Part shown: positions 9,119 through 50,430 of the stretch, piece after piece
Layout of the letters: each line of letters opens with the position of its first letter
Position numbering within the stretch: position 1 is the stretch's first letter
Assembly (NCBI GenBank): GCA_950295325.1
Contig: OX485807.1
Span: 18,445,666-18,509,665, forward strand
Source: Polytrichum commune
Taxonomy: Eukaryota > Streptophyta > Polytrichopsida > Polytrichales > Polytrichaceae
Direction: 5' to 3'
Length of the DNA stretch: 64,000 nt
Translations under genes and position numbers: made by a program
The notes under the pieces: model-generated
What the model saw: the letters and a program-made list of their open reading frames with translations, nothing else
The model's database searches: none
Told to the model about the DNA's origin: nothing

Positions 9119-9345
9119 ATTGGATGCCACCTATACACCGCCACTTCCAATTTACAAATTTCCCTCCACAACCAGATTCAAAAGAGACTCTTTCCCACGC
9201 TCGCCACACCATAAGAGCCACTCGCCCACTTCGCATTCCCATCTTACTTTCGCTTACATCCGTTCATCGATCACTCTTGTTTCCTAGGTTTTCCATTTCT
9301 CTCGCTTCGTAGCAAGCTCGCAGAGTTTCAGATTCATTTGCAGCA
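9119..9345 (+). promoter_or_regulatory. H2B promoter and 5' leader
   Basis: The 300 bp before the H2B start are GC-richer than their surroundings and pyrimidine-rich on the plus strand, as expected for a histone leader. An inverted CCAAT box (ATTGG) lies at 9119-9123. A sequence near 9075-9095 (GATCGTCGATCCGTG) loosely resembles plant histone octamer elements, but is not a match. No clear TATA box was found. Confidence 0.4.
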
Positions 9346-14335: not shown

Positions 14336-14397
14336 GGATGCTGGACCTAAATGAAACTGAGAGCAATTTAGCCGTAATTTTCCATACCAAGTAACAT

Positions 14398-14471
14398 GTC
14401 TGGTTGGTGTAGTTGGTCGTCATGCTAGTCTCACACAATAGAGGTCCCCGGTTCGAACCCGGGATCAGACA
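14398..14471 (+). tRNA. tRNA-Val (anticodon CAC)
   Basis: A 74-nt cloverleaf, close to plant tRNA-Val(CAC) as I recall it. The acceptor stem GTCTGGT pairs with ATCAGAC, including one G-U, followed by discriminator A. The D arm GTGTAGTTGG carries a good A box. The anticodon loop CTCACAC places CAC at 34-36. The T arm CCCGG-TTCGAAC-CCGGG is perfect and holds the B box GGTTCGAACCC. The anticodon stem CTAGT/AATAG has one G-A mismatch. No T-run lies directly downstream, so termination, and hence activity, is uncertain. There is no intron. Confidence 0.85.
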
Positions 14472-16295
14472 ATCAAGCGGTCTCCAATCTGAAACATGGC
14501 TTGGATGAGAGTTCAGTTTGTCAGGGTGAAGATATAAGGCCCAGGCAAGATTTTAAGTTTTAATGTTAATTTTCTTAATTTTTTTTAGCCTTGTGCTACG
14601 TGTCCGCTTCACTGTTTATGGAAATTAGTGTCACATGCATAACTTATCCTATTTTGAGGTGTATGCTAAGTTACACTACACCGTTTAGGATATTTAGTGT
14701 GACTTACTATTTGAAATTACGCAATGCAATACCTTTCTTATTCGTGAGTTCAATGCTCACTACTGAGAGTTGAATAGGTTGTCTGGACAATATAGAATAG
14801 AATCAACTTTGCTTGGTAGAATATTACATTCTCAATAAATAATCCGAATAGTGAGTGACACTAAATACCATAAACAGAGTAGTGATCAACAACTTCATCA
14901 TTTGCATGCGTATGAGTATGTTCAAAAGTGTTGTGATGTGTATGCCTATGTTACACAATGGTCTGCAAGTTAACTAAAGTGTACACAATTGACACTTGGC
15001 ATTAATATGTTCAAGAAGATTTCCTCTTGTCCTTTTAAATGTAAACACGTGACACTTGCCATTAGTGTGCTCAATAATATCTTCCGCTTGCATATTAAAC
15101 CGCAAAACTATCATCTCAAGTATCCCAATGTGCTATGCTAAATGTCTTAATGTAAATAATCACTTACTTTAAAATCTTATTTATTTTGATGAATAGTATG
15201 ACATTTGCAATTAGTGGACATGACACTTTGAGACCTCTAGGCATCTAGTTTAGGCCCTTCACATGTAGTGTACATGACAATAAATACATAAACAATGTAG
15301 TACACGTGATTTGGTTGCACCATTCATTCAAACTAAGTATTACGTGCAATCGCAACATACTCTAAAAGCCCTCTTAATACAATCTTTATTTTTATTTTGT
15401 TTGATTGTTTGTTTGTTTGTTGTTGTTGTAGTTGTAAAATTAACAATACATGTACAATTTCAACGATCAAAACAATATGCATACATAAAAGAGTTACATT
15501 TATATATAGTCATTAACTTTTGAATCAAAACTAGACTAAATTAGCAATAAGTTACTAACATATATGGTTTTAAATGATAATTAAGTATCCTTAATTCATC
15601 CTTAATTTTAATTAGAAAAGAGAATTAGCAATATTAATGTAATATAATATGGAGGCATGTCCGCTTAGGCAACTTGTGGATTCGCACCATGAAATGCTCT
15701 ACGTGAGTATTGATTGAAAAGGGCAAAAATATATATATATATGGATAAATATGGATGAAACGAGGATGAAAGATGGATGGGGATAGCATAGAGGCTGGTA
15801 AGCTAAATCCTATTGCAAGCCATGAGGGATTGATGTTTGCTTCACAACGCAATAGGGCTTTGATGTGGAAGTAGAAATGAAAATGGTTGTGGGAGAGCTC
15901 CCCATATAACTACTTTCAACATGGTCACATTACCCTAATGGATCACAATTCTATATAGATAATGTGTAGACTATATTGCATTATGAGTGGTTTTCGTCGA
16001 AGTTTTTTGTCTGCCATCGCCATTTTAAGAGATGTTATAACAGTGCTAACGATCCGCCTTCACAATTCATTCCGAAAACACCTCTCACAATGTGTGCACT
16101 ATCAGTATCACTCATGCGGCGCAAAATCAAATCATCACTCCTTCCATGACTCTCTCTAACATGTTTGAATATGTCATGTCATGTCATGTACCTCATACCT
16201 TCATTGTCAATTTGTCAAGTCCAAAAACGTGGCATAAAGGTGATTATCACAAGTGACCTAAATATAGTCATATTCTATAACCTTCACATAAATTA
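14472..16295. other. AT-rich intergenic region
   Basis: No gene recognised. It contains scattered AGTGTGA and ATTTAGTG words like those at 4.2-4.9 kb, a TTTG/TTG-rich tract near 15400-15430 and a short (AT)n near 15730. Confidence 0.55.
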
Positions 16296-16306
16296 CACAT
16301 TGTAAC
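16296..16306. repeat. Target-site duplication, left copy
   Basis: CACATTGTAAC, exactly repeated at 29892-29902 and directly abutting the left terminal inverted repeat. An 11-bp duplication is within the range seen for Mutator-like elements (8-11 bp). Confidence 0.85.
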
Positions 16307-16380
16307 GGGGAGTGCTATCTTATGAGCGGTGAGCAATGAGCGGTGAGCGATGAGCGGTAACTTATGAGCAGTGAGGAAGA
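16307..16380 (+). repeat. Left terminal inverted repeat with 7-bp periodic motif
   Basis: After the terminal GCTATCTTAT the sequence runs as consecutive heptamers: GAGCGGT, GAGCAAT, GAGCGGT, GAGCGAT, GAGCGGT, AACTTAT, GAGCAGT. The same heptamer grammar occurs at the right end. Such subterminal iterations usually bind the transposase; that is inference here. Confidence 0.8.
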
Positions 16381-16411
16381 TGAAAATTTTGGTAATAGGG
16401 CCACCAATATC

Positions 16412-18207
16412 TGTGAGGCCAAACCCCCCACCCTTAAGCGTCCGTAGTCCGAGTAGTGGGTTTGGGCTCACATTCCTCCGCGGTATTGGATTTGGACTTG
16501 GATGAGTCCATAGTGCAAGGTTCACCCTTCAAGTGGTCTTGGATTTAACTAGCTCCTTCATAAACCCAGCTCCTTCATAAACCCAGCTTCTTAGCTTCTA
16601 ACTAAACAAACCCAGCTCCTTCATGAACCCAGCTCCTTAGCTTCTAACTAAACAAACTCAGGTCCTTCATAAACCCAGCTCTTTACTTTCTAACTAAACA
16701 AACCCAGCTCCTTCATAAACCCAGCTCTTTACTTTCTAACTAAACAAACCCAGCTCCTTCATAAACCCAGCTCTTTACTTTCTAACTAAACAAACCCAGC
16801 TCCTTCATAAACCCAGCTCCTTCATGAATCCAGCTCCTTAGCTTCTAACTAAACAAACCCAGGTCCTTCATAAACCCAGCTCTTTACTTTCTAACTAAAC
16901 AAACCCAGCTCCTTCATAAACCCAGCTCCTTCATGAACCCACAACTTTGTAGTTGTAATCCCCAACTACCTCACTAATTATTCAAGCCCTTAACTAATCT
17001 TCCTACCTAATTTCCCTAATTCTACTAACAACCCCTTTCTAATCACACAATTCTTCTCTAATCCTAAAATCCTAAAATCCTAGAGAGGAGAGGGGGAGAG
17101 AGAATTTCCTAACTTCACTAAGACTAACTAATCCACACAAGTATATTTTTGCACTCATCACAACATCAAGTGCTCAACTCTTAAACATGGAACTTGCAAC
17201 CACGTGTATTCAAAACATGAACTTAAAGTACCACAAATTGGAATCATGAATTAACTTTAAAATCCTTCACGTCAACACTAATTCTACCAAGAGGTCAAGC
17301 CCTCTTCAAGGCTAACAAGCCTTGGCTCTCAAACTAAAAACTAAGCACACACATGTGCTCCAATATGGCTTCCCACACCCACACTTATAACTCGTGGGGT
17401 GCCTTGGAGCACAAAGGAAAGAGAGGATGAGTGAGGGAAGAATGAGGGATTATATAGTAAGCTTGAGGGGGTGAGCACCCTCAAGGCTCACGATAAGCCC
17501 TTGAGATTTCCTCCTACTTAGTAGGCGCCAATCCTATCTTCTAAGTCTTCCTCCCTCAAATGATCAACAAGGATCCTAATTCGAACATTTAACTAGCCTT
17601 GGCTTTCTACCTACCACACTTTACCAAACTTGGGATGCTTAACTAGCCTTGGCTTTCTACCTACCACACTTTACCAAACTTGGGATGCTTCAACCCAAAC
17701 TTAGCCTCCTTCGCTTTCCGCCGCCATAACTTTCTCCCCTTACTTTCCCAAATCGTCGCTCACCACTTAATTCAAACCACGATGCTTAACTCGTGATTTG
17801 ATTGGTGCTTTGAGAATTTGCTTATCCTCCACCTTGCATTCTTCCTTGGGCCTTCCCCATTAAGTGGCCATGATGAGGTGGTCCACTTGTGCGCTCCATG
17901 TGATCCTCCATTCATCCCAATTCGAATGCACTTGCCTCTTGAGTCACTTTGGTTGTCTCCATCCATTTGTACTAGCCTACTCACTAACTACTCAATCCAA
18001 GTTCTCCTTACCTATCCTCATTCACTCAAATCCTTCCGAAGGTAAAAACACAATAACAACTCACATCCTAGCCTCTTACAACATGGTACTTCTAAGACTA
18101 ACATTTCACTCTTTTTATATTTTTGTGAAGTAACATGCTACTTCAAAGTGCATCAACTAACGTTTCAAGGGTCTAAGACTAAATGTGGGCACCCTTTTGG
18201 GCTCACA
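16412..18207 (-). mobile_element. Solo LTR A (1796 bp) inside the DNA transposon
   Basis: It starts TGTGAGGCC and ends GGGCTCACA, has the TG...CA ends of an LTR, and is flanked by a 5-bp duplication ATATC (16407-16411 and 18208-18212). It matches 48640-50339 in reverse orientation over its length, so both are solo LTRs of one family. No internal retroelement coding is present. Internal features are tandem copies of an AGCTCCTTCATAAACCC-type repeat (about 16550-16935) and a duplicated 60-bp block at about 17590-17690 that copy B lacks. The insertion post-dates the DNA transposon. Confidence 0.9.
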
Positions 18208-18304
18208 ATATCCTATAACCGTGGAATTGTGGCCTTAAAAATGATGATTTTAGGGTTTAGTAATAAGAGGCTTGAGAAGGATAAACAACATGAAGTCCAA
18301 AAAT

Positions 18305-21300
18305 TTATTCATCAGTAGTAGCACTAGACATGAAACTATCTTTTGCCTCGTCATCTATATATATTCGAGCACCTTTGCATTGCGAATTGATTTTGGAACT
18401 ATAGCAAGATTCTTCATTTGGATCCGAATCTTCGAGATTCAACATTGCAATTGCAACATTCTCGGCATATGATGGGAGACGCGGGCTACGGCTTGGACTT
18501 CGTAGGAATTGTCTATGTGCCCAAAACGGGAGACATGTCCTCTTTCCAATCGTATTCCTGAAATCAAATCGATGAAACATGTAAATAATGTGAAGAAATA
18601 AAAATGAACCAATGAATTGAATGAAACGAATGAATTGAATAAAAATTTATTGTATCAAAACTTACTCACACTCAAATTCAAGCATCTCCTCATCCGAGAG
18701 GTCATCATCTTCTTTTGTGAGATCTTGTATATTCTCCTTAGATGACCCCTCTTTCAAAACCTTTTCCAAAAGCGGTTTCAATATGTGCTCAAACATGTCA
18801 TTATCACCCTCAAATGCAAGAAGATGTCTGCCACATGCGCGTGTTGCTAGGATAGAAGCTCCAGTGGAACACGTCAAATCAACAACGCGTCCATTCGATG
18901 GTGTAAACAATTCAATAAGATCTTGAAAAAAACGCGGCGATTTTTGATATGGCCCCCTCCAAGGTCTTCCCGATTTTTGAAGAAGCATGTTTTTTTCATC
19001 CACAAAATTGAAAAGCAAGTTTTTGCTTTTCAATCCAGTGCCAAAAAAAGTGGAGTTTGGTTGTCTCGTGGATTTTGTGGTAGTAAAATCCCTTACCAAG
19101 ACATGAACCATAAATGCCGGAGTCTACAAAAAAATATAAATTGTGTTAAAACTATATACAATACAAATAACACCAAAATAATTAAATAGAAACAATTGTG
19201 ATGTGTTATACTTACGGTGTACGTTGGAGACTCCGGATCCTTGAACACCATGTACGAATTGAGGCAAATAAAAGTCCTAACAACTTTCATGTTGCCGTTG
19301 TGTAAGGTTGAATTCAAAACCTTCTTGGTTTGCATATCGATAGCAGAAAATACTATGAGGACGCCATCATCAGACAAGATGGACTTGCACAAGGACATTG
19401 TTGCAACCATCCAGTTCTTCTCATATTTATTCCAAAGAGGAATTTCAGCAGGTTTATTGGAGAGGTTGAAGTCAAGACCGTCGGGAAATTGGAGAAAAAC
19501 CAAGTCAACGGCAAAGGGAGTCGGACTTCCCATGACATGAAATTCGCGATTGTCATTGAACTGAAATACCACAACATATCACAATATAAGACATAAAATA
19601 AAACCCAAATGAAAGTAAGAACATTAGAAGAAATTCCAAAACAATAACACTTACGTTTTCAATAAATTCCCGCCATTGGATCCACTCAGGAGGGCCTAAA
19701 TCCACCCTTTTAGACTTGTTCTTGACAGCAGTAGATCGAGCAAACGAGAGCGTGAGAAAGTTCTTCAATATGAATAACTCTTTTCTCAAAATATCCGTTG
19801 GCGCACGATGAATAGCGTCATAGGTGCTGGAGTAATGAAATTCCAATACATCGCACCCAGACTTTGAACTTTCGCCTCCAAGTGGATTCTTATCCAAATC
19901 ATTGGAAAGAACAAGCAATTCTTCATGTTGTGAAATTTCCGATTGACCTTGTATTTTGGTTTCAGGAACATGTTTCCTCTTACGACGTTTTGTCTCTTTT
20001 GGTTCTGGCTCTCTAAGTTTAAGCTGCACAATTTGTGCTTGCAAAATTGCAGTATCACGAGGATCCACATTTTTAGCATCATTTATCTGACGGATTGTCT
20101 TCTCACTTGACGGGCATGCATCCTTAGGACAATCAAGATACCAACCACAATCCTCATAGTGTGGGAGCGACCAATCCAAACAAATCTCAGTAGTGAACAT
20201 GCATGAATCTCCTGCACCAGTGTCACGCCAATTTGGGAAAAAACGAGGTTCCCCTATAACGCATTTATGTGGAATCAAAACATATCGAAAATACCTGCAC
20301 ACAAAAATATTGTAAGTCAAATATTCCATGACAATTTGACAAATGGAATCAAAAAAATCAAAAAAATAATAAGATTAGGTTGTACCTGTATAATACACGT
20401 TTCATAGCAAGATCAATATTAGGTTGCTCATCCCAACCGTTGTGTTTTTTAACTTTTCCGCTTTGGAATTCACGATAGAATATTGAATTGAAAGCCGCAA
20501 ACTTCCAGGTTTGGATATACTCGGAGAGAGTAGGCACATCTGCAGGCAACTGAAGAGGAGATGAAAGAATACTTTGAAGCTCTTCGATAGCTTTTTTTTC
20601 CAACTGTGCCCAATATGTAGACTTTGATAACCAATCATCAAGTGCAGAATCAGAGAGGGGCGATTTCGGGAAGTGCAATGCATCTTTGTCAAATCTATTG
20701 CCATTCCAAAGTTTGAGCCATCCAACTTTGACTTCTGAATCCACATTACTGACAGCAACACGATGAAGTTTCTCTTGTAGCATTTCAGGCACCGAAAATG
20801 AACCCCAATGGTGCTTAACTTCTTTAAGGAAAGCAGAGGTAAGGTTGATGTCGGCAATCGCTAGTTGTTTCGTAAAACTAGAAGATAACATTGCACGTTT
20901 TTTGTTGACAGCTACGGACATTGCTTTTGAAACTCCGTCTGATGTCCGTTCAAGAGGATGAGTTTCATTGTACTGGTTGAGAGCAATATCGCTAGCCTCA
21001 GGAAGTTCTTGCTGAAAAATCAAACAAAAGTCAATATTTATAAGTACATATAGATGTAATGTAAAATGAAGATGAATAAACATAAGGCACATATTAGCAA
21101 TGGTAGAAGAACTTACACTGTACATGTAATCCAAAAAAAGTGGTCGTGTCAAAGAATACCAAGTTTCAACGGACTTCTCCTCACATCGTTTATAATTCTT
21201 TGGATCCAGTTGCTTTCTGAAGGAAGTCAAAGGCATGGTGCCTATACTTTGCATCCGATATAAAGTATGCACCAAATTGGTGGATACGTGAGAATTTTCG

Positions 21301-24300
21301 GTTGACCTAAAAAAAAATTTAAATTGATTAGATTCATGATGATATAATTTGGATAACAAAATATAAACTAGAAATAAGTATAAAAAATAGGTAAGAACAT
21401 TACTTGTTGATGTCATGCATAGCAGTCAACAAACTTGGAATGTCGTCAAGCTCGGGCGCCAAAATGATAGAATCCACGAAGACATGACGTTCATAATCTT
21501 CGGTATATACGCGGTCAATATAATTTTTCCAAGCAAAAAATCTGTGATTTCCATCCCATATAAAAAACATCTTGTTCTTGTATGACGTCAATGACAAATC
21601 TGTATCCAATTGAGATTCAAACAGGGCATTGGCTTGAGCCCAATTTGGGCTCCAAGATGCGCGAACCTCATCATCCACGAATTGAAAGTTTCCCTTAGAA
21701 TCGGTGGCCGATATATAAAACACACGGTCACCATCACGATAACCATTAAAAAAATCAGCCTCCAATTTAGTAATGTCACCCTTCAAAGCAGGACGCACAA
21801 TCGGCATAGGAACCATGCGACATAAGGGTACACGCAAGCGAGCATTAGGTCCAGCACGGATTGAGGAAATTGTGGAAGTGGAATTGACCTTTCGTTTGTT
21901 CGTAAGCTCCCACACTTTCTCTTGATAAGTTTTATTGTCACCATCATTATCTTCATCCGAATCAAAATCATCTAGGGATTTATTTATTTTTTTCTTTTTC
22001 TTATTATGAAGATTTGACGATATATCCTGATGATGATGAACCTGTTGAGATGGACGATCTTGAGTTGAATGCATTGTGCAATCATCATCAGTCGAAATAA
22101 GAGTTGTTCTCTCCAAATCCATTGATTCGTCCTAAAACAAATGAAATAAGTTTCATAAATAATCCAAAACCAGTAGCAACACATTAGCAATAACATTACA
22201 AAACCAACAGCAATAGCAACAACAATAACAACATAATACCACGAACACAGGGAAAAATGACAAAAATTATTCTACACATTGCCATTTACATCTCTAAATA
22301 TTGTACGATTACGGTGGCCGCTCACCCCAAAACTACAAGGGCAGACCCTGTGCGTTAACGCACAGGGTCTGTGTGTCCAACTACAGGTCTACAAAAGTTG
22401 GGCGCGAGGTTTGCGTCGAACGACCCAAACTGCCCACCCAGTTTCGATCGAACGACCCAAACCGCCTACAGCCAGTTTGGGTCAGATGACCCAAACTTTC
22501 TACGCGTGGTTTGGGTCGGCCGACCCAAACTAGGGGGACAGTTTGGGTCGGTCGACCCAAACCATGCTCACAGTTTGGGTCGACCGACCCAAACCATGCT
22601 CCTAGTTTGGGTCGACCGACCCAAACTAGGCGGACAGTTTGGGTCGGTCGACCCAAACTAGGCGGACAGTTTGGGTCGGTCGACCCAAACCATGCTCACA
22701 GTTTGGGTCGACCGACCCAAACTAGGGGGACAGTTTGGGTCGGTCGACCCAAACCATGCTCACAGTTTGGGTCAACCGACCCAAACGAGGCGGACAGTTT
22801 GGGTCGACCGACCCAAACTGTCCGCAATTTACGCCTGAATATGCGCAAATACCCTGTCATCACGAAAGTACAAACAAACCTTGTACTGCACCTGTAGATG
22901 AGAGAGCTTGCAGCGTCGAGCTAAGGTCCGACAGATGAGAGAAAAAAGACTGAATGCTTTGGGGGTGTGGCAATTTATACTACTCGTCCCTGCAGCCATA
23001 TTTAGCGTGGCTCTTCGTGGCCCTGCATAGCCGCTAGAAAGTTGTCAGCGTAGACCCTGTGCGTTAACGCACAGGGTCTACGCTGGCAACTTTGAGGCCA
23101 CTGTGCGTTAGCGCATAGACCCTGTGCGTTAACGCACAGGACCGAGGCATGAATTTTATAAAAAACTTTTTTTTTTGAATTTGATAAAAAACTGTCTGGA
23201 ATTGGTAGATTTGCCAAAACTTGTAAAATCTGGAAAAAATGCTAATGGGGTCCAAAAAAAAAACAAAAATATGCTATATTATCTAAATCTCCGTAGCTAA
23301 AAATTCTTCTCATATTTTTTTTTTGGTTTGAAATCATTTTCTTTTCTCATTCTTCTATCTATTTCCTTGTTTTGGGCCACCTCGTAGATTTTGGGTTTCG
23401 GGGCAAGAAAAAAATTATGCTATTTTGTGTCATTTTCTAGCTCCTATAACGTATTGCATGCATTCTAACCCCGTTTTGAATAGTTTTTTTGGTCCTACGC
23501 TCTGAATATCGATTTAAATTCATACAATAGATATTTGTTTTACTTTTAGGCTCTCCTAGTCGTTTTACCTCCCAATTTTTGGCGTTCCTAAGTTGCTCTT
23601 ACAAACCCTGTGCGTTAACGCACAGGGTTTTAGCTCCGAACTTTGGCCTTCCTAAGTTGCGCTTACAAATCTTGTGCGTTAACGCACAGGGTTTCTCCTC
23701 CCAACTTTTTGCCACCTAAGTTGCTCTTACAAACCCTGTGGATTAACGCACATGGTTTCCCTTCCTAACTTTTGGCCTTCCTAAGTTGCTATTACAAACC
23801 CTGTGCGTTAACGCACAGGGTTTTAGCTCCCAACTTTTGGCCTCCCTAAGTTGCTCTTATAAACCCTCTGCGTTAACGTATAGGGTTTTACCTCCCAACT
23901 TCTCGACTCCTAAGTTGCTCTTATAAACCCTCTGCGTTAACGTATAGGGTTTTACCTCCCAACTTCTGGCCTCCTAAGTTGCTCTTATAAACCCTCTGCG
24001 TTAATGTATAGGGTTTTACCTCCCAACTTCTCGACTCCTAAGTTGTTCTTATAAACCCTCTGCGTTAACGTATAGGGTTTTACCTCCCAACTTCTCGACT
24101 CCTAAGTTGCTCTTATAAACCCTCTGCGTTCTCCTCCTGACTTCTAGCCTTCCTAAATTTTTGTTATATACCATGTGCATTAACGTATAGGGTTTCTCCT
24201 CTCCAATTTCTAACCTCTATAAATTGCTACTACAGGACATGTGAGTGAACGTACAAGGTTCTCCGTCCTAACTTACAACTTATGCACTATCAAATTATGT

Positions 24301-24601
24301 GAACGTTGAACTGACTTACCTTTTTGTTTGTCATCTTCTTTGAACCCGTCTTCAATTCGGACTCTGATACACGATCGTCTACATCTTCTTTGCTCTTTGC
24401 ACCTTCATCATCCTCCATCGCATCAAAATCCAGTGTCTTCACAGTTTCCTCTACCATACTCAACAAGTTTCTTTTCCCTTTCTTATTTGCATTCTTCTTT
24501 CCCACACTCAGTCTGAATCTCTTTTTCTCGGAAGTGAAATACAAAGCTTTCCTACGTCTTCTCTTCGGCCTCACGGGTGTTCTCTCTACATCGTCCACCA
24601 T
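18305..24601 (-). CDS. ParB-like plus DNA methyltransferase-like protein of transposon
   Basis: Eight exons (24601-24320, 22131-21404, 21306-21117, 21011-20386, 20294-19655, 19560-19216, 19123-18666, 18557-18305) join at GT-AG sites with matching phase to 3522 nt, 1173 residues plus stop. Residues 1-94 are basic, with RPKRRRRK as a likely nuclear signal, followed by acidic stretches. About 285-295 reads IWDGNHRFFAW, the GxHR motif of ParB/sulfiredoxin-like nucleases. The C-terminal third follows beta-class N6/N4 DNA methylases (DPPY motif first, SAM motif last): VDLVFLQFPDG (841-850) in the place of motif IV, SDDGVLIVFS, KSPRFFQDLI, then VVDLTCSTGAS (1017-1027) and AFEGDND for SAM binding. 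The usual (D/N/S)PP(Y/F/W) is replaced by QFPD, so catalysis is doubtful. It is divergent from the transposase gene. Function in element regulation or DNA marking is inferred. Confidence 0.8.
22345..22375. repeat. Single GTTAAC-centred palindrome beside the 32-bp array
   Basis: An inverted pair CCCTGTGCGTT/AACGCACAGGG stands alone just left of the 32-bp palindrome array. It is the same palindrome that recurs at 23.05-23.14 and 23.6-24.2 kb in the same intron. Confidence 0.75.
22415..22826. repeat. Array of about 12 palindromes, 32-bp period, in methylase intron 1
   Basis: A 22-bp palindrome with half-sites GTTTGGGTCG and CGACCCAAAC around a two-base centre recurs from 22440 onward (near-regular starts at 22541, 22573, 22605, 22637, 22669, 22701, 22733, 22765, 22797). 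Spacers are mostly 10 bp (TAGGGGGACA, TAGGCGGACA, CATGCTCACA, CATGCTCCTA). The centre alternates between GT and AC. It lies wholly inside the 2.2-kb intron 1 of the methylase-like gene. It makes all frames open, so short reading frames on it are not genes. The same palindrome recurs in intron 1 of the transposase gene. Confidence 0.92.
23049..24250. repeat. Second palindrome array, GTTAAC-centred, period about 58 bp
   Basis: CCCTGTGCGTTAACGCACAG and its variants recur at about 23049-23140 (three copies) and then about ten times from 23600 to 24190, each within a unit that also carries CCTAAGTTGCTCTTA and CTCCCAACTT. Early copies are perfect; copies after about 23860 decay in one arm (CTCTGCGTTAACGTATAGG). 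It fills the rest of intron 1 of the methylase-like gene. Poly-T/A tracts and no coding lie in between (23160-23570). Confidence 0.9.
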
Positions 24602-25123
24602 CGTTGGTGTCTATGATATGTTTTCTATCAGGTACTATCATTTATTCTTCCAATGTATCTATCTCACAAAATCCGGCGTATATTATGATCACATGTTGTA
24701 ATTGGCGTTCAATGAGCGAGATATTTCGACGCGTTTGTCATTATGTGTTTATTTTTGTTATATCCGCCAAAATTTTCTGACACCTACTTTGTTCTATTCA
24801 TAATGATCAATAATTTATTTTTCCAACCAATTTTAATTCTTTCTACATCTACGTCAGTCCACACATATATATTTTAAATTTCTACCAATATTTTTAGTAT
24901 TTGACGCCATTTTGTGTATATCTTGCTCGTAAATATTCTCTGACTATTATTGTGTTATGTCCACTTCTGTATTATTAGATGCTATGTATCACACGCTTTC
25001 ATCTCCATCCATTATTGTATCACACGTTTTCATTTCCATTCATTTCCTCATACAACTCTATACAAAAGTAACATTCACCCCATATTCTTGTGATGTATTG
25101 TTCATATGTTCTTTTGATTTTCT
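24602..25123. promoter_or_regulatory. Shared divergent promoter region of the transposon genes
   Basis: The two start codons (24601 minus, 25124 plus) are 522 bp apart and point away from each other, so this AT-rich spacer must hold both promoters or leaders. No coding is apparent. TATA-like words occur (for example ATATATATTTTAAA near 24870), but I cannot assign one to either gene. Co-expression of the two genes is inferred. Confidence 0.6.
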
Positions 25124-28100
25124 ATGGCTACCATTAGAGCTCATGGATCTTTTGTTCCCTTCATCTTGCCACTCCAAGATGGTGGTCATGTGAGTGTTTC
25201 AGAGGATTTACTTAGTTTGAGATTCAACCTCCAGATAGGAACCATGTATTTAGAGCATGAGATGTACTCTGCAAATGGAGAGGTGTATGAAACGATTTTG
25301 GTTCCAAAAAATAGAACTGATGTTGGTTTTATGTTCCTAGGACCTGGTTCATTTAGGGTGATAGGACTTTCTGAGTCTCAGATGCAAGTTTCAACTGTCA
25401 TTTTGACAAACGAATCCGGTACATCCACAGTTCAAATTCCCTCTATCGCACATGTTAAGGTGGAACCCCTTGATGATAGTGTGTTTGTGCTATCAGATTC
25501 AGAAGATGACATTTGTGCATCTATTGATCTTTCAAACACATCGCCATTTCCATTTAGAAGTGTTCATTCTACTCCTTCCCAACTTCCTATACATGTAGCC
25601 AAATCCCCTTGCGGTCTTATGTACAAGAAGGTGGTTCCCCAAATCTCACCTTCTCAACGTCCTCTACTACACCCTTCACCTTCATCTACAGGGTTGACTA
25701 TGATTGATGCCTTGAAGCTGACAAAGTTAAGAAAAAGATCAAAGTCCGATCTTGCATCCATTGATTTTGACAGTATAGATGTTCGTGAAGTCAAGTACTT
25801 ACCATCTTCTTTTAATGGTGATGTTTTGTTTCTCTTGCCTCCTGTGGCACTCAAAGCTCCAAATACGTATGGTCGCTCAATGGACGGCATGGACAAGATG
25901 TGCGACGGTCACCCTTGGTGCACCACCAAAACCACGAATATCCAAAATGACTTTGAACTGTCTTTCCGGCGCTCTACTTGTGCTGGTCATCTCGAATGTC
26001 ATAATGACTACTGTGATTACATGAATCGCAATGGGGGCCTCCGGAACAACACTGAATGGGCCGGTTCAACTCCTATCCCATTTGCTGTGGGTGTTGTTCC
26101 CCCTACTAAGTCCACTGTCGAGTGTAAGGTATGTCGTTCCACACCTGTGTGCATTGCTTTGTGTAATGCTCGAATCATATACATCCAGTCCACATCCGTT
26201 GGAATGTCCAGGGCTTGCATTCATCTTGGTGTACATGATCACCCTGTGGCCAATGGCACATGCCGTGAATCATTGGACATGGCATACCAATGCGTTGCAA
26301 ATGAGGTATTGAAAACACCCACAGCAAAAAATTCAGCCATAGTTATGGCGGCGAGCAAACAATTCTTGGCCGATTACCTTCTCAAATCTCCCGCAAATGT
26401 CGAAGGCCATCACTTGGTTGGTTCATCCCTAGAGGTCGTCATGGACAAATTCAGCACTCTTGCGTCTCCAAATTGTCGTAACTTTGTATCTGGATCAAAG
26501 CGTTTTTTGCGTAGTGGAATGGGAACTATGGATAGTATTATGGCGCTCAAAGACCACTCTGCTTTCAAATTCGTCCATGGTAGTCGGTTCCCAGGGCAGT
26601 CAAAGGACAAAGTGTTTATTTTCAAGATGTCTGTAGACCTTCCAGGTAGTGGTGTGGAGCTTGTGAAGAGGATGCAAGTCGGTGGGGATATGGAGAATTC
26701 ATGGATTATGTTTGACCATGTCAAACGTTTGAAGGACTGGACGACCATGGCTTGCCATGTGTACGACAGTCGATACTGTAAAGTGTTGACTATTGCGTGT
26801 TGTGACATGCAATCTGAAGATGGTGCAGCACAAATTCTCTTTTGGGAAAATTTGAATGCTGTCATGGCAGAAAATGGTGTACCAAACGTAAACTTCAAAG
26901 GATTTATGGCTGATAGTGCTCAAGCTAATTGGAATGCGGTGAGGGCGATTTACGGGGATGGTGATCCAAGTCTACCCATGGTTGCACGTGAGCGTACATG
27001 TCTTTTCCATTGGTCCGCAAGCTTGGATAAGGTGACCCAAAAGTATATCAAACCATCATTACAATTTCAACACAAACAAATATGCAAGGATTACAAAGAC
27101 GTGAAAACAATGGACGACGCTGAGACCAAGTACCATGTGATTCATTCTTGGTGGTTGTCATCTGGAGCTGCCTCCGAAGAAGGCATCCTTGGCCTTTCAG
27201 AGTGGTTGGGATTTTGGCACTTTCGTTACAGACAATGGGGTGGCCATATGCTACTTGTAAGTACATATCAAATTTCATTATTCAATGTAATATATCTTAT
27301 GTTTTTCTTATCTTTGTTTTTCTGTGTTGTTCATAGGATATGACAATAGAAAAACGTGCGGGAATGCCAACATGCAACCTTGCAGAGACTGTACACAACA
27401 AACAACAAACAGTTTGGGTCGTTCGACCCAAACGTGGCAGCCATTTTGGGTCGAACAACCCAAACTGCGCAAACAGTTTCGGTCGTTCGACCCAAACCTT
27501 GTAGGCAGTTTGGGTCGTTCGACCCAAACGTGGCAGCCATTTTGGGTCGAACGACCCAAACCTAGATATATAATCTATCTTATGTTTGTCTTATCCTTGT
27601 ATTTGTGTGTTGTTCATAGGATATGACAATAGAAGAGCGTGCAGAAATGCCAACATGCAACCTTGCAGAGACTGTACACAACAAATGGCTCCAACAGTCC
27701 GGCAACAAGATGACTTGTTTATATGAAGCTACAGTGGACGACATGATCCGTGCCTTCATGCAAATTGCAAATTACCGGACATGGTTGAAAGGGGGGTCTG
27801 ATGGTAAAGGTCCTGATTCGGCCTCCTTGAAACTCAAAGCAGCTGCCAGGTGTGGAGATCCAAAAATGTTGGCTGATGCCATGAAGTCTTACCCAGGGGC
27901 AGAAGACGTCAACACTAGAGATTGTGCATTGGAAGGGTCAGAACTCTTTGGTTCTACCAAACGCAAACTCAACCTACCACCGGGTGCTGATTGTGACTCT
28001 CATCGACCCGACAAAGTGAACTATTCCATTCCTCGTCCCAACACCCGAGCAACTCGTCAACGCATAGAGGAATCGTTGAGTTCTGCAATTCATGATGTGG

Positions 28101-28987
28101 CTCATACTACATCCGTGTTAGAGACTGATTGTCTTGCTTCCAACTGGCACATTGCAAGATTACCACCCAACTCAGCCAAACGATGTTGGGCACTGCAGGC
28201 CATTACATGGACTATGTGCAATGCTAAAATCGGGACTGGGAAACATGGCACACCTGCCCCAACATACAAAGGGCTCAGGAAGGAATTTCGATCTCCCAAC
28301 AATGTGGAGTATGAATTTTGGTTTTGCCCTGACGACATCAAGCGTTGTGTGAGTGGCAGTAAGAAGAAATATGTGTTGGACTGGCCTATAGTACCCAACA
28401 CGTGGCCGGTGAAGATAGGTACCAATCTATCGAGAGAGGAGGTTTTGGCACTTGAAGATGCTGGATTTCAACTACAGCAGAGGGAGGCATTGTCCCCTCG
28501 TCGTAGGCTTTCAACAATTGCAACTCTCCCCATCCCTCGCTCGTATTTTTCTATACCACCAAACCCGGATGCCCACCCTACATTCAGGTTTGGGAAGACA
28601 GTGCGTCGTAATCCAACAGCACCGCTAGCGGATCACAAAAACAAATGGGAGAGTGCCGGACTCATGGAGGGTTACTATGTGGTTGGGATCACTGCCATTC
28701 CATATCCGGGCTTTGGAGTGATAATCAACATTGTCTCCAAGCAGGATATCACCTACCATGTGACAATTGGCGACATCCCGCATTGCACATGCCCGGATTT
28801 CACGAAAATGTCCTCTCATGCATTGGGAAAGAAAGGAAAATGGGTGTATTGTAAACATCTTTATTATGTGTTTAGATTTTTGTGCAAGGTGGATTACGAG
28901 AGTGACAAGTTCATTCATGCACCTACATATACCTATAATGAGGTCATGCGACTACTTGAACTTGCTGGTATTGTAGAATGTGAGTAG
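25124..28987 (+). CDS. DDE transposase with zinc motifs and SWIM finger
   Basis: Two exons, 25124-27256 and 27620-28987, join in phase 0 to 1166 residues. The first 250 residues are of unknown fold with an acidic patch (LSDSEDD). Zinc-chelating motifs follow: STCAGHLECHNDYCDYM (about 285-300) and CKVCRSTPVC with CIHLGVHDHPV (about 335-375), resembling WRKY-GCM1-type fingers. The catalytic core shows CCDMQSEDG (about 560), GFMADSAQANW (about 595) and ERTCLFHW (about 623), and a glutamate in SEEGILGLSEW. The C-terminal SWIM finger is C1100-x-C1102, C1122-x-H1124. It should cut and insert the element through its terminal repeats. No internal stop is present, so it may be functional. MULE-like assignment is inferred; KDZ is the alternative. 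Confidence 0.85.
27287..27685 (+). repeat. Palindrome array between duplicated exon starts in transposase intron
   Basis: About 116 bp containing the end of the intron, the acceptor TTCATAG and the first 22 codons of exon 2 occur twice: 27287-27402 and 27570-27685. Between them (27411-27561) are five copies of the GTTTGGGTCG/CGACCCAAAC palindrome. The first exon copy runs into the array and reaches an in-frame stop, so use of the first acceptor would truncate the transposase before its SWIM finger; the second gives the full protein. The layout suggests that the array arrived with or between a segmental duplication. Confidence 0.85.
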
Positions 28988-29670
28988 TATTGCAAGTGTT
29001 CTATTAAACAACATATATTTCAATGTCAATAAATGACATGTTTTGGTTTGGATTATTATAATAAAAATTAGCAATGGACTGAAAGTATTTCAAATGATTC
29101 AGTAACTTCATTTCTATTTAGACTACACCCAACCGTGAGCGGTTTCATTTATTCATACGGATAAATAATAACAAGTTTCTAAAAATAAAAAATAATTAAG
29201 AAGATTCTACGCACATCCGCGTAGTAATGTCTTCTTGGTATCCACCTATAGATTATTCCTTCTTTATCACTAGCTCAATTTGGGATAGCACCAGTCAATG
29301 TAACCAACCAGATTCGAACCCGGGCTGATCCAGACCTAATACCAGTCTCTTACACAACTCGCATCCACAGGCGGATGTCTCAAAACCTAGTAACTACCTA
29401 CATATTGACAATTTCTATTATCTAATTTCCTTGTTTTTGTAGATTGTGGGCCTTAATTCAACCCGTGAGCGGTTTGAGTGGCTCACAATTATGGCACCTA
29501 CATATACGTATAATGAGGTTATGCACCTACTTGAATTTGCTGCTGTTGTAGAATGTGAGTAGTTGTACAAGTGTTGGTTGTAACTACATGTATAAGGATG
29601 TCAATAAATTACATGTATTTGTTTGGATTATTATAATAAAAATCAGCAATGTATTGAAAGTGCTTTAAAT
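28920..29670 (+). repeat. Partial duplication of transposase 3' end
   Basis: The last 20 codons plus about 80 bp of 3' flank (28915-29070) are repeated at 29492-29665, including CACCTACATATAC, GTAGAATGTGAGTAG and TTTGGATTATTATAATAAAAAT. Between the copies is about 420 bp holding a B-box-like GGGTTCGAATC on the minus strand near 29310. The second copy is a relic and not coding by itself. AATAAA-like words lie in both copies, so they may supply alternative polyadenylation sites. Confidence 0.75.
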
Positions 29671-29814
29671 GATCCATGGCAATAGGGCCCTTTCACTTAT
29701 GTTTCATTTAAAATTCTTGCAATTTACAATTGAAAATATGCAATTAATTTGTCAAAATTGTGGTTGTGTACCCTAAACCCGTGTGTCTTTACTAAATTTG
29801 GATTCATTGCTCAT

Positions 29815-29891
29815 ATGTTACTGCTCATTGCTCATGTGTTACTGCTCACCGCTCACCGCTTACTGCTCATCGCTCATAAGATAGCTTCCCT
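29815..29891 (-). repeat. Right terminal inverted repeat with heptamers
   Basis: Read on the minus strand from 29891: AGGGAAGCTATCTTATGAGC, then heptamers GAGCGAT, GAGCAGT, AAGCGGT, GAGCGGT, GAGCAGT, AACACAT, GAGCAAT, GAGCAGT, AACATAT. It is the inverted partner of 16307-16380 with the same 7-bp period. Confidence 0.85.
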
Positions 29892-29902
29892 CACATTGTA
29901 AC
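29892..29902. repeat. Target-site duplication, right copy
   Basis: CACATTGTAAC, identical to 16296-16306. Confidence 0.85.
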
Positions 29903-33340: not shown

Positions 33341-36300
33341 TCAACTCCTACACCCTGTCAAATCAAGGGTTGTCAAAGAACTCAAGTTCCCCAATCCCTC
33401 CGGTATCCTTGTCAAGCTCGCACACCCTGTCAAATCAAGGGTTGTCAAAGAACTCAAGTTCCCCAATCCCTCTGGTATCGTTGTCAAGCTCGCACACCCT
33501 GTCAAATCAAGGGTTGTCAAAGAACTCAACTTCCCCAATCCATCCGGTATCCTTGTCAAGCTCCAACACCTAGTCAAATCAAGGGTTGTCAAAGAACTCA
33601 AGTTCCTGAATCCCTCCGGTATCGTTGTCAAGCTCGTACACCCTGTCAAATCAAGGGTTGTCAAAGAACTCAACTTCCCCAATCCATCCGGTATCCTTGT
33701 CAAGCTCCAACACCTAGTCAAATCAAGGGTTGTCAAAGAACTCAAGTTCCCGAATCCCTCCGGTATCGTTGTCAAGCTCGTACACCATTTCAAATGAAGG
33801 GTTGTCAAAGAACTCAAGTTCCCAAATCCCTCCGGTATCCTTGTCAAGCTGGAATAATCTCTCAAATGAAGGGTTGTCAAAGAACCCAAGTTCCCCAATC
33901 CCTCCGGTATCCTTGTCAAGCTCGCACACCCTGTCAAATCAAGGGTTGTCAAAGAACTCAAGTTCCCCAATCCCTCCGGTATCGTTGTCAAGCTCGCACA
34001 CCCTGTCAAATCAAGGGTTGTCAAAGAACTCAAGTTCCCCAATCCCTCCAGTATCGTTGTCAAGCTCGTACACCATTTCAAATGAAGGGTTGTCAAAGAA
34101 CTCAAGTTCCCAAATCCCTCCGGTATCCTTGTCAAGCTGGAAGAATCTCTCAAATGAAGGGTTGTCAAAGAACCCAAGTTCCCCAATCCCTCCGGTATCC
34201 TTGTCAAGCTCGCACACCCTGTCAAATCAAGGGTTGTCAAAGAACTTAAGTTCCCCAATTCCTCCGGTATTCTTGTCAAGCTCCGACAATGTATCAAATG
34301 AAGGGTTGTCAAAGAACTCAAGTTCCCCAATTCCTCTGGTATTGTTTTCAACTTTGGGCAATATTCTAGATGTAATTCCATTAAAGGAATGATTGAAAAC
34401 ATTTCTTTGGGTATTTGATTCAGGAATGAACATCCGCACAATTGCAAAACTTGTAATTTCACAAAAGATTTCCAAAAATGAGCATTTGTCAATAGATCTT
34501 TACAAGTCTTCAATCTCATGTCATCCCAAATATGTGATGGCATCTCATCCCAAATATGTGATAACATCTCATCCCAAGTTAATGGTATTAAGTTTATCAT
34601 GAAGCATTTCAAGTTGAAAGAGCGTGCAGCAAATGAACAAATGTAGTCTATGTTGTTGATGATATTTGAAATCTTCATGTCCTTGGCATGAAATCTCAAT
34701 AGGCGAAGATAGCTCAGACCACCATCTTGGATTTGTGGAACTTGAAATAGGTTGTGGCTTATGCCATTGCCAAAGTAAAAACAACCTTGAAGTTTACCCA
34801 CATCCTGTTTTTGAGAGTATGTGAAAGTATTAGCATATTATACTTGTGTAAATTTTTTCAACTACTAGTACATGACATAAATTTGTGCTAAGCATCTATA
34901 GCATCCTAAAACTTTACCCAATACCCATCCAAAATGTCATTCTAAATTGAAGGTTTTCCATCAAGCCATATGTTTTAAGAAATCGTTTACAATTAAAATA
35001 CATAAGACACTATCTTAATATAGCCAATGTTAGTAGAATACCGAGCAGCTTGTAAGTCCGTTTGTGTTCCAAATTCGAGTACCCGCATATTCTTTCTCAG
35101 CAATCATTTGTCCCATGGCACGCAAGTGGTCGTGCATTTGCAAAATTTCATCACAGTCACCATCAATTTCTACGGTTACCAATGCTCGATGGACCAAATT
35201 CTTCAATGCAGAAATTGGAGGGATGTTGTTATCGGCCCACACGCGTAGGGCTCTTTCTTTGGACATGCCACTAGGATGCACATCTCCACCGAAGAAGCAA
35301 GCTATGTCCAAGAACATATTTTTTTCTTCTTGAGTCAAACCATCATCGAAGCTTACTCTCAAGGTATTCCATATCTCATCGTCCTCTCCGTCCAAATTTC
35401 TTCCCCTTTTCATCCTTTGGAATGCACGTTCCCAACTTCGCAACTTTCCTTTTCCACGTAAGTATGCCCCCATGACTTTCAAACTCAAAGGCAAACCCTT
35501 GCAAGCTTCCACAATTATGTCCCGTATATCATTAAATTCTTGTGATAAATGAGATGCTTCCCACAAAGAATGAATGGTGAAGAGAGTTTTTGCTGCATCA
35601 TCATCTAACTTGCTCACATCAAATCTTCTACCACTCGCCCTCACACGATTTCTAATTGCACCCCAATCACGAGTTGCTATAATGAGTGTGGTACCCTTGC
35701 TTTGATCTAAAATGGCCGTTGGTATAATGTCGTCCACTTGAGCTTCATCCTTAACATCGTCCAAGATCAAAAGGACTTTCTTTTTGTCCAACAATTCTTC
35801 CATCAACTTGTGCCCATGCACCAAATCCCTGACCTCTTTGTCCACACCAAATTTTGAAAAGATTTCACGTAGAATATCAAGCAAACTCCTTCTTTTCAAT
35901 TGCCCCACAAAGCATGATGCATCGTATGTGGACTTCACATCATCAAATATGGCCTTCGCCAATGTGGTCTTCCCTATTCCACCCATACCGACAATACCCA
36001 AGGTATTCACTTCTTTGAGGTGATATTTTACTCTTGCAAGGTTGTTCTCGAAATTAAGCACCGTTCGATCAATCAATAATGTTCCATCAAACACCTATAT
36101 GTACAACACATCAATATGTCAATAAAGTCTAATATACCTCACCACAAAAAATGCATCTTCAATTTCAAACATCCAAAATAATAAATCAAAGCAATTATTA
36201 AATTGAGAATAAATCAACTAGTGAGCGCATTGTAATGGAAGTGGCATTTACCTTCTCACTATCATGATTTGGTTTTTCTTTGCAAATTTCCAGTGTTGTT

Positions 36301-37892
36301 GACATCTTTCGAAGAAGAATCCTAACTCCATCGTACTGCGGAACCATAATACTCAAATATGTTCCCTTCATGAACATTTTCTTCAAGCCTATGAGTCTTT
36401 TGCAAATATCGGAGAATGTTGGCCTTTGTAAGGGGTCCTCCCTCCAACATTCCTCAATCAATTTGGTAAGCTCCCCACAATTGATAGGTAGCTCCGGCCT
36501 TTCACCCGTCTTTATTTTTTGATGAATTTCTCTCATATCATTTGTGTGATGAAATGGCACCTTCCCCGAAAGGATCTCTGAACATGTCATAGCAAAAGAC
36601 CATACATCCGCTTGGAAAGGACACGCCATACAAGCCAAGTTTTTTTCCCTTGCCTCAGGTGCCATATACCTTGGTGTACCAACAATATATTTATGCTTTT
36701 GTATTTGCGGTTTGCTTTGAACTTCCATTTTGGAAGTGCCATAATCGATCAATTTGACATTACAATGGTAACGACTTGTATCCTTTGCTCCATCAATGGT
36801 CGTGGAGCTTAAAAGCACATTGTCTGGCTTTAAATCGAGATGGGCGACATGCATGTCATGAAGATACCACATGCCGCTTCCAATTTGAAGCATAACATCA
36901 ATTGCAACAATGTATGGTAAAAGTGTCTTGTTGAGCTTCTCCAACATTTTTGTCAAACTCATGTCCATCAACTCCATCACCAAATGTAACTCGTTACGTT
37001 CTTCGTCTATTCCACAGCAAAAGTATTTGATGAGGTTCGGGTGGCTCAAGCCTGCCAATATCCCCACTTCTTTGCGAAAACCAGAACAATCATCTGGAAC
37101 TGCCAACGTTTTTGTTGCACTTGGTAATCCCAACCATTTTGATTTGTACACTAATCCAAACGCACCACCACCCACTAGTTCCACAAGCATAGGTTTTGGA
37201 AAGTCTTTAGGTATTTCCAAAGCATCCAATTCTCCACCTCTCACTTGTTGCAAATCACATTTCAATCTCTTCAACAAATGCTTTGCTAATATGTGTTCAT
37301 TGGAGTCCTCAAGTGCACTTTCAAGCTTCTTCTGCAAGTCTTGTTCATCGCCTTCAACTTCCTTCAAAGTAGCCACATTCAAATCCTTGCACATTGTGTA
37401 GTTTTGCGGATTCGGGTGGTTTGTCAAGTACATCTCGTGCATTGCCTCCCAACAACACTTCAAATCAAACACGACTTCCCAAAAGGCCTCTTTGTTGTTT
37501 AATTGGAAAATAGCTGCATGGCACCAATCTCCACTCCCACATTCATTCACCAATGCTCCCCCTTTTTGTATGATACGATGCAACTCCATCACCACAATCC
37601 TTACTTGGAAGGATTGCTCGATGGATGTGATCATCTCAATAATACTATGCACGGTCGTAGAAAGCTTGGCGACAAGATCTGTGCATTGCCGCTTATTCAA
37701 CACATCATCTCGTCGGAGAATAGTTTGCATTTTGATCATTTCTTCCTCTTCCCATTCTAAAAATTCCGAAATCTCACATCGATGCGGTTTCTCTTTGTGA
37801 ACAAGTGTCAAGAAGTATACGAAGCAAGTGATGATGAACCGCCATAGCATTGAAAGTTGGTTCACCAATAATTGCCCAAGCTCGATGGCCAT
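33341..37892 (-). CDS. Protein kinase-NBS-LRR immune receptor-like protein
   Basis: Three exons (37892-36252, 36094-35042, 34804-33341), all phase 0, give about 1385 residues. Exon 1: a hydrophobic segment near 13-32, then a kinase with G-loop GGGAFG (241-246), lysine K261, HLDLKPDN (HRD changed to HLD, 351), DYG (383) and APE (411). Exon 2: P-loop GIVGMGGIGKTT, kinase-2 KKKVLLILDDV, RNBS-B TTLIIATRD, GLPLSLKV and MHD (MHDHLRAMG). Exon 3: an N-terminal linker, then about 14 LRRs of exactly 24 residues (LTTLDLTGC.SLT.IPEGLGNLSS). Such kinase-NBS-LRR proteins are known from mosses and would sense pathogens in the cytoplasm or at a membrane. The last exon ends at a TGA created by small deletions near 33330-33345; two more LRRs continue out of frame to about 33170. 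Whether the shortened protein works is unknown. Confidence 0.88.
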
Positions 37893-49700: not shown

Positions 49701-50430
49701 CCCCCTCTCCTCTCTAGGATTTTAGGATTTTAGGATTAGAGAAGAATTGTGTGATTAGAAAGGGGTTGTTAGTAGAATTAGGGAAATTAGGTAGGAAGAT
49801 TAGTTAAGGGCTTGAATAATTAGTGAGGTAGTTGGGGATTACAACTACAAAGTTGTGGGTTCATGAAGGAGCTGGGTTTATGAAGGAGCTGGGTTTGTTT
49901 AGTTAGAAAGTAAAGAGCTGGGTTTATGAAGGACCTGGGTTTGTTTAGTTAGAAGCTAAGGAGCTGGATTCATGAAGGAGCTGGGTTTATGAAGGAGCTG
50001 GGTTTGTTTAGTTAGAAAGTAAAGAGCTGGGTTTATGAAGGAGCTGGGTTTGTTTAGTTAGAAAGTAAAGAGCTGGGTTTATGAAGGACCTGAGTTTGTT
50101 TAGTTAGAAGCTAAGGAGCTGGGTTCATGAAGGAGCTGGGTTTGTTTAGTTAGAAGCTAAGAAGCTGGGTTTATGAAGGAGCTGGGTTTATGAAGGAGCT
50201 AGTTAAATCCAAGACCACTTGAAGGGTGAACCTTGCACTATGGACTCATCCAAGTCCAAATCCAATACCGCGGAGGAATGTGAGCCCAAACCCACTACTC
50301 GGACTACGGACGCTTAAGGGTGGGGGGTTTGGCCTCACACAGAGGGATTGAGGAACTTGAGTTCTTTGACAACCCTCAATTTATATTGGTGTATGAGCTT
50401 GACAAGGATACCGGAGGGATTGGGGAACTC
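43787..50430 (+). pseudogene. Expanded LRR pseudogene from kinase-NBS-LRR
   Basis: It starts with the last NBS residues (EIDGDGDEILQMHDHLRAMG), an intron (about 43926-44161), the same LRR linker as the intact gene (DVGKLQGCFYFGNG) and then about 56 units of 72 bp up to 48639. It lacks the kinase and P-loop. The frame breaks at least three times: an extra T at about 46081, a missing G at about 48287 and another at about 48505. Solo LTR B interrupts the array at 48639, and one last LRR resumes at 50345. From 46660 to 48130 a 288-bp higher-order unit (four LRRs, marked by TTGAGCAGTTGTACGAG) repeats about six times, sometimes in shortened form. Repeats are nearly identical, so the expansion is recent. 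A truncated LRR-only product (44162-46084) is possible but unproven. Confidence 0.88.
48640..50339 (+). mobile_element. Solo LTR B (1700 bp) in the LRR array
   Basis: Starts TGTGAGCCC, ends GGCCTCACA and is flanked by the 5-bp duplication CAGAG (48635-48639 and 50340-50344). Both duplicated bases and reading fit a single LRR unit cut in two. It is nearly identical to solo LTR A (16412-18207, inverse), with fewer internal tandem repeats. A TATA-like TATATAATCCC at about 49340 may be the LTR promoter. No internal retroelement region is present, so it formed by LTR-LTR recombination. Confidence 0.92.

Follow-up and report, generated by a model that had tools for sequence, protein, structure and literature searches.

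A MULE-like transposon of Polytrichum commune with a phage-type methylase-like gene and intronic palindrome arrays: a possible system of self-recognition

The window analysed here is a stretch of 64,000 nucleotides on contig C5 of the 408-Mb genome of Polytrichum commune, and it contains a MULE-like DNA transposon that was mobile recently and whose two genes are both open. The initial annotation had described a complete DNA transposon with two long, divergent, spliced genes, and this description holds: matched ends, a flanking duplication and both genes are present in the sequence. One gene, hereafter MT, is predicted to encode a methylase-like protein of 1173 aa in eight exons on the minus strand (18305-24601; exons 1 to 8 at 24601-24320, 22131-21404, 21306-21117, 21011-20386, 20294-19655, 19560-19216, 19123-18666 and 18557-18305), a model that rests on the spliced open frame and on the location of the exons in other copies. 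The second, TP, is predicted to encode a transposase of 1166 aa in two exons on the plus strand (25124-28987; exons 25124-27256 and 27620-28987). Both models splice open. The element spans 16307-29892, a corrected boundary; the flanking duplication is exact, as had been claimed, but it is 10 bp long and not 11, the eleventh base (C, 29892) being part of the element. In the copies, the longest strings common to both ends measure 10-13 bp; each was taken as a 10-bp duplication by reference to TTCCCTC, the right end that the copies have in common. The target-site duplication ACATTGTAAC thus lies at 16297-16306 and 29893-29902. Inside it, the left terminal inverted repeat begins GGGGAGTGCTATCTTATGAGC (16307-16375, plus strand) and the right one terminates GCTCATAAGATAGCTTCCCTC (29824-29892, minus strand); the ends are near-identical, and were placed by comparison of the ends across copies and, for the left one, by its genomic matches. 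The string GCTATCTTATGAGC, common to both ends, is a piece of a longer imperfect inverted repeat, whose arms (16314-16375 and 29824-29885) match at 87% over 62 nt.

The genome contains many relatives of this copy. A search with TP, in which the best 40 of 4628 first-look candidates were scored and from which all counts are lower bounds, gave 39 other copies; ten of these were retrieved and form, with the window copy, the eleven-copy set compared below. The top 19 TP matches, window included, are 93-100% identical across nearly all of residues 1-715, and three copies on contig C1 differ from the window copy by a synonymous divergence below 0.01 in both MT and TP. The left end, allowing at most one mismatch, occurs 243 times in the genome (119 + 124) and its reversed control not at all. 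The exact left core is present in ten of the eleven copies and the exact right core in nine. Among the nine copies with both end cores, window included, eight have a perfect target-site duplication at unrelated flanks, and one, C7:12071884, has none. The MULE superfamily is characterised by terminal inverted repeats and duplications of 9-11 bp, and the 10-bp duplications of these eight copies agree with this. Core to core, the window copy has a length of 13.6 kb, against 11.4-12.0 kb in seven and 12.7 kb in one of the eight other copies with both ends; the excess comes from a solo long terminal repeat (LTR; TG..CA, 1796 bp, 16412-18207) inserted into it. This nested LTR has its own 5-bp duplication, ATATC, at 16407-16411 and 18208-18212, and is not part of the element proper.

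TP may be the DDE/SWIM transposase that it had been called. Its C terminus carries a SWIM-like CxC...CxH pattern and the SWIM profile PF04434 matches residues 1090-1128 weakly (E 0.1, 12.6 bits, cut-off 19.6), but the Pfam MULE profile (PF10551) does not match TP. The window is not among the 142 matches of a genomic MULE search in which the best 150 of 271 candidates were scored, and eight MULE loci of this genome, compared with TP by blastp through their longest open frames, gave no match. "MULE-like" is a working name for TP; the length of the duplications and the inverted repeats fit MULEs. A tandem duplication at 27257-27690 repeats the end of the TP intron and the start of exon 2 around a palindrome array, leaving two acceptor copies.

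MT travels as cargo of the element. At least 39 MT loci were found among 3294 candidates in the genome. The position of the last exon was assessed for 30 matches, of which four on C7 were excluded, as the first 100 left ends reach contig C6 only; in 25 of the other 26 loci the exon stops 152-250 bp inward of a left end that has the orientation expected, and the exception, C1:56334088, has no adjoining left end. The eight MT exons and the two TP exons could be placed in each of the eleven copies, with the splice sites mostly kept and with partial exons in C7:12071884 and C2:44460210; in six copies MT exon 5 shows a TG at its edge, perhaps an artefact of where the alignment stops. The view of MT as an ordinary host gene was rejected, given the 243 left ends and the position of MT just within one in 25 of the 26 loci assessed. 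The initial annotation had itself named two findings that would speak against it, namely copies with the methylase-like gene outside the terminal repeats and homology to an ordinary host gene; since MT lies inside the ends in genomic copies, neither refutes it. MT aligns without stops, gaps or indels in the window copy and C1:63984878 only, and at least two of the eleven copies have both genes open.

Purifying selection acts on MT. When Nei-Gojobori counts are pooled across the 55 pairs of copies, the ratio of nonsynonymous to synonymous differences (pN/pS) is 0.225 for MT and 0.288 for TP, and within MT 0.160 for the ParB-like residues 161-345, 0.206 for residues 346-830 and 0.336 for the methylase-like residues 831-1075. 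Synonymous divergence across the eleven copies falls along MT from 0.22 in the ParB-like part through 0.11 in the middle to 0.03 in the methylase-like part, with 0.04 in TP; residues 161-345 are thus about five times as divergent as TP. The gradient looks as if similar backbones, or subfamilies, had exchanged two alleles of MT.

The C-terminal domain of MT (exons 6-7, 18666-19560, minus strand) is, by sequence comparison, homologous to phage beta-class DNA methylases. MT matches the PHROG family phrog_67, DNA methyltransferase (E 5.7e-7), and two of its segments, residues 875-914 and 981-1061, match a profile of six phage methylases, with E calculated for a one-sequence search. In a tblastn search of 50,697 phage records with the piece from motif X to motif I, 56 match at E up to 1, the best at 2e-4, and the 20 of these that were listed are all annotated as methylases or methyltransferases. 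The Pfam profile N6_N4_Mtase reaches E 0.023 and 15.1 bits, below its cut-off of 26.7. The claim of a prokaryote-type methylase module in a plant transposon is thus upheld by phrog_67, the six-phage profile and the place of the gene inside the ends. A generic methylase motif search of plasmids and a bacterial promoter scan were uninformative.

The catalytic motif appears to have been lost from this domain. Motif IV, D/N/S-P-P-Y/F/W in its catalytic form, is DLPY, DPPY or DIPY in each of the six phage proteins, whereas MT has QFPD (within LQFPDG); motif X has changed from HPTQKP to GPYQKS, and in motif I (VVDLTCSTG) GSG has become STG, with the first glycine altered. LQFPDG and CSTG are kept in all eleven copies, motif X reads GPYQKS in nine and GPYKKS in two, one of which has a stop nearby, and the phage forms are absent from all eleven. 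We therefore regard MT as a methylase-like protein and not as an active methylase; because motif IV reads QFPD in all eleven copies, self-methylation by MT is unlikely, and the earlier suggestion that the element modifies its own DNA is not supported.

The ParB-like segment in MT exon 2 (21404-22131, minus strand) was assigned by motif only. It carries FIWDGNHRFFAW in ten of the eleven copies and FIFDGNHRFFAW in one, so that the DGNHR motif that had been pointed out is present, but no ParB profile of Pfam, NCBIfam or PHROG matches the segment and searches of the PDB by sequence returned nothing significant. The segment may have a real ParB fold. A search of a protein database with MT residues 160-1120 gave no homologues, and viral_contigs hold no relatives of exon 2. 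Short relatives without Pfam domains occur in metagenomes, 16 for the methylase piece and 42 for exon 2; these 58 proteins (P0001-P0058) each match one or two MT exons. DPPY is absent from all five that cover motif IV (P0001, P0002, P0003, P0004 and P0006), and P0048, 39% identical, carries a similar WDGNHRLLAW. Relatives of the element therefore exist in environmental DNA, the source of which is probably plant material.

The introns of both genes contain arrays of palindromes, which the initial annotation had missed. Palindrome 1, GTTTGGGTCG-NN-CGACCCAAAC (22 bp), occurs at 18 sites in the window with at most three mismatches, all of them within the element: 13 lie in MT intron 1 (22409-22818), mostly at a period of 32 bp, and five in the TP intron (27412-27561), flanked by the duplicated intron end and exon-2 start. 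Palindrome 2, CCCTGTGCGTTAACGCACAGGG, occurs at ten sites under the same threshold, all in MT intron 1, with a lone site at 22346-22367 and nine further sites at 23055-24077 that follow a 64-bp period within 23562-24130. Shuffled sequences give an expectation of zero for both. The arrays flank the divergent start region at about 1.8-2.3 kb from both start codons. In a 16.5-kb stretch of each copy, palindrome 1 has 6-15 exact sites and the 14-bp core of palindrome 2 has 4-8, at the same intronic places in ten of the eleven copies and displaced in the rearranged C2:44460210. Nine of the 15 palindrome 1 sites of C1:63984878 lie outside its left end.

The variation among palindrome 1 units resembles that of recognition sites. 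Over 148 units, heterozygosity is 0.050 at the 20 half-site positions, 0.68 and 0.62 at the two centre positions and 0.449 in the spacers. The half-sites contain 75 single deviations, one uncompensated double change and no compensated change, which disfavours a hairpin or cruciform role of the palindrome. A bias in the selection of units was considered as the source of the conservation and rejected, as units chosen by their neighbours only (0.048 in half-sites against 0.401) and four shifted selection registers (0.059-0.094 against 0.38-0.50) agree with the main count. With conserved half-sites, free centre and spacers and no compensation, the pattern looks like that of protein-binding sites. 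Genome-wide, exact palindrome 1 occurs at 9231 sites and the 18-bp core of palindrome 2 at 502, the reversed control giving none in either case. A prokaryotic or viral origin of the palindrome was discarded, since neither viral_contigs nor genome_contigs holds an exact match.

The first 100 of the 9231 sites all fall into seven clusters on C1, and not all of these belong to the TP/MT family. Three do, at 438 kb (TP 96%), 475-478 kb (MT 84% over 106 aa) and 2154-2160 kb (TP and MT 92-95%); two 3-kb loci at 475 kb (L019 and L020) had no match. Next to the fourth, at 462 kb, is a TP relative that is 40% identical over 135 aa, and nothing recognisable follows in the next 6 kb. The other three, at 616, 1180 and 2115 kb (loci L051, L052 and L053, at C1:616000, 1180400 and 2115300), belong to a second repeated family, hereafter family D. 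L051 contains five palindrome 1 arrays of differing spacing, and the spacings of palindrome 1 by place are 32, 64, 78, 57, 36 and 35 bp; the sites outside the left end of C1:63984878 have mostly the 78-79-bp spacing found in family D. Palindrome 2 accompanies the TP/MT family and also occurs close to the 40%-identical relative, at 461.7-462.6 kb; the three family D loci lack it. The family D protein carries GDFWLIDGQHSVEASKKI (QYNVEASKKI in L052) and the ParB-like motif IDGQHSVEASKK; its best PHROG match is a ParB-like partition protein (E 0.055), it has no Pfam match, and it shows no detectable homology to MT or TP. A methylase domain suspected in it by eye was rejected, as the phage profile reached only E 0.10 and 0.16 in a two-sequence search and neither Pfam nor a methylase PHROG matched. 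A piece of family D has no match in phages, and neither ends nor a transposase were found in its three diverged copies.

The base composition of the element offers a possible trace of its methylation. The observed/expected ratio of CpG is 0.85 over the span of MT exons 2-8, 0.96 in the palindrome 1 array and 0.84 in the palindrome 2 region. TP has 0.56, the remainder of the window 0.56-0.57 and the nested LTR 0.31. Among the copies, transitions at CpG are barely raised over those at other C/G positions in MT (82/2648 vs 352/12998, or 0.031 vs 0.027); the counts are 57/2398 vs 207/15246 in TP and 26/752 vs 46/1504 in the half-sites. As an indirect indication, this suggests weak methylation over the MT half of the element.

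We propose that MT is an element-specific, sequence-specific DNA-binding protein, with a phage-type methylase domain that has lost its catalytic motif, and that it would bind the 22-bp palindromes arrayed in the introns of MT and TP. By analogy with VANC of the Arabidopsis VANDAL elements, this binding would counteract silencing and the element's own copies would stay expressed. The intronic, site-like arrays and a conserved MT without catalytic motif make such self-recognition the best reading, and we give an even chance to a VANC-like, self-specific anti-silencing system made up of MT and the palindrome arrays. Within it, the binder of the palindromes would be MT and not TP or a host factor. 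Evasion of silencing, one of several suggestions of the initial annotation, has become the leading reading because the palindrome arrays were found, with the anti-silencing step itself still drawn from the analogy.

Several results weigh against this proposal. Exons, selection and arrays were compared in eleven copies only, and nine of these carry at least one stop, gap or indel in the aligned MT, although in C3:1698720 the defect is a single gapped codon, possibly due to the edge of the alignment. The pN/pS ratios of some close pairs approach or exceed 1 (up to 1.06 in MT and 1.50 in TP); for the window copy and C1:48094954 they are 0.88 in MT and 0.95 in TP, pairs with very few differences being prone to scatter, and the MT ratio of the decayed copy C2:44460210 is 0.63. 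The AlphaFold model of the ParB-like exon 2 (pLDDT 46.6) is too poor to use. Palindrome 1 is also present in family D, whose ParB-like segment is not detectably related to that of MT (hhalign probability 0.3%; blastp nothing significant), and the second palindrome is unexplained. Homogenisation may keep the array units alike, although the spacers of the same units vary. The CpG richness is not specific to the arrays, the ratio being 0.93 in the remainder of MT intron 1, and composition or young age could account for it; CpG transitions in the half-sites are not below those in the MT exons (0.035 vs 0.031).

Three other explanations of MT and the palindromes have to be considered. MT could have N6-adenine or N4-cytosine methyltransferase activity and use it to mark or protect the DNA of the element, as its clear homology to phage methylases, the frequency of ParB-methylase fusions in phages (PMC12704722, available text) and the constraint on its methylase-like part (0.336) would allow; with motifs IV, X and I all unlike those of the six phage enzymes, and these departures fixed or nearly so among the copies, we consider this highly improbable. 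A role on the palindromes without any part in silencing, as a transposition accessory or a transcriptional regulator, is rather unlikely. A regulator would fit the placement of the arrays, which flank the divergent start region from introns of MT and TP, and the joint movement of the two genes, and the two distinct palindromes could supply separate inputs. The arrays are, however, internal and not subterminal, and would make poor transposase sites; the high CpG ratio over MT and its intron favours low methylation, yet it is compatible with a regulator too. MURB is a known point of comparison for such a protein. Another is mutB, according to the available text of PMC6446971.

The palindromes may, alternatively, not be MT sites at all: a host protein or the transposase could bind them, or they could be a selfish repeat spreading among other repeats. 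The 9231 genomic sites, their presence beside the 40%-identity TP relative and their sharing with family D, which has no detectable MT or TP homology, are in keeping with this. As family D combines the palindrome with a ParB-like segment not detectably related to that of MT, the binder may be something other than MT. Against this explanation, family D has a ParB-like motif of its own, and the arrays differ in both spacing and spacer sequence, so they are not one mobile repeat unit; we judge it unlikely. A broader form of the self-recognition proposal would take in family D. Here unrelated mobile-element families would share a parS-like palindrome code, read by ParB-like proteins that they encode and that descend from phage ParB-methylases; these proteins would load at the GTTTGGGTCG-NN-CGACCCAAAC arrays, perhaps as nucleotide-switched clamps, and keep the silencing machinery out. 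This broader form, too, seems doubtful at present, family D being no more than a candidate mobile element.

The proposed self-recognition system has counterparts among described systems. VANC21 binds arrayed motifs in non-coding regions of VANDAL21, introns included, leading to loss of methylation (PMC5735166, PMC10398659, available text). As in VANDAL and Hiun, which are MULE-type transposons, an extra gene stands beside the transposase, and arrays of a short motif, variable in number by copy, lie in introns or other non-coding parts. The motif of those elements is concentrated in their family; here the same introns hold the arrays in ten of eleven copies, but palindrome 1 is common to family D. 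The VANC21 motif is a 9-bp YAGTATTAY arrayed in one orientation (PMC5735166, available text), whereas the palindrome here has 22 bp and a free centre. VANDALs are termed non-TIR elements, TIR being terminal inverted repeat (PMC6446971, PMC13317346, available text), in contrast to the clear inverted repeats found here, and the available text of PMC5735166 does not speak of a methylase domain in VANC, whereas MT has a methylase-like domain. Anti-silencing has been tested for VANC, while MT is known here from sequence alone. VANC carries DUF1985, and among Pfam matches of the element's proteins at E up to 10 there is no DUF1985, so MT is not filed as a VANC member.

ParB recognises parS, clustered palindromic sites. 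The element recalls this system in its clustered palindromes and in the ParB-like motif of a protein that it encodes; the sequence differs, the host here is a eukaryote, and MT is a candidate binder. Fusions of ParB-CTPase folds to N6_N4 methylases are frequent in phages (PMC12704722, available text), and MT shares with them the order of a ParB-like motif and a beta-class methylase domain in a mobile element. It differs in lying in a plant transposon, in being spliced and 1173 aa long, and in having lost the catalytic motif, and its ParB part is putative. Other eukaryotic mobile elements also encode proteins of DNA-modification type: the TET/JBP transposons of fungi carry DNA-modification genes (PMC12730594, available text), and the DNMT retrotransposons of dinoflagellates and charophytes encode C5-methyltransferases shown to be active (PMC5890265, available text). 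Those proteins are dioxygenases and C5-methyltransferases, whereas MT has a degenerate amino-methylase domain accompanied by site-like arrays.

Outside the element, the window contains a predicted tRNA-Val (CAC) at 14397-14472 (plus strand), a probable resistance gene at 33341-37898 (minus strand) with frames named by eye as kinase-, NB-ARC- and leucine-rich repeat (LRR)-like, and long repetitive LRR frames with open antisense frames alongside at 44105-48296 (plus strand). Repeated LRR frames adjoin a second LTR (48640-50339), which is 94% identical to the one nested in the element and has the opposite orientation. Pieces recognised by eye as Copia-type reverse transcriptase and integrase lie at 60493-61074 and 62812-63366 (minus strand). 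The kinase, NB-ARC and LRR frames and the seven large contigs of the genome fit a moss, perhaps one that has seven chromosomes.

Searches of the open-access PMC literature listed no account of a protein of this kind in a plant transposon, the main text of PMC12704722, as available, has no word starting with "plant" or "transpos", and ParB is not mentioned in the available text of PMC12730594, PMC13317346, PMC6446971 and PMC12695648. Within that literature the architecture of the protein is unreported. Self-specific anti-silencing by a transposon has already been described for VANC; the element presented here would be an apparently independent solution, in which a phage-type DNA-modification protein seems to have traded catalysis for recognition and is found with its likely cognate sites. 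This makes testable how a transposon may discriminate self from host, how a prokaryotic modification domain may be exapted, and whether a ParB-like protein is able to act on eukaryotic chromatin. If the broader form were true, it would mean a eukaryotic, transposon-borne system akin to ParB-parS for epigenetic self-recognition.

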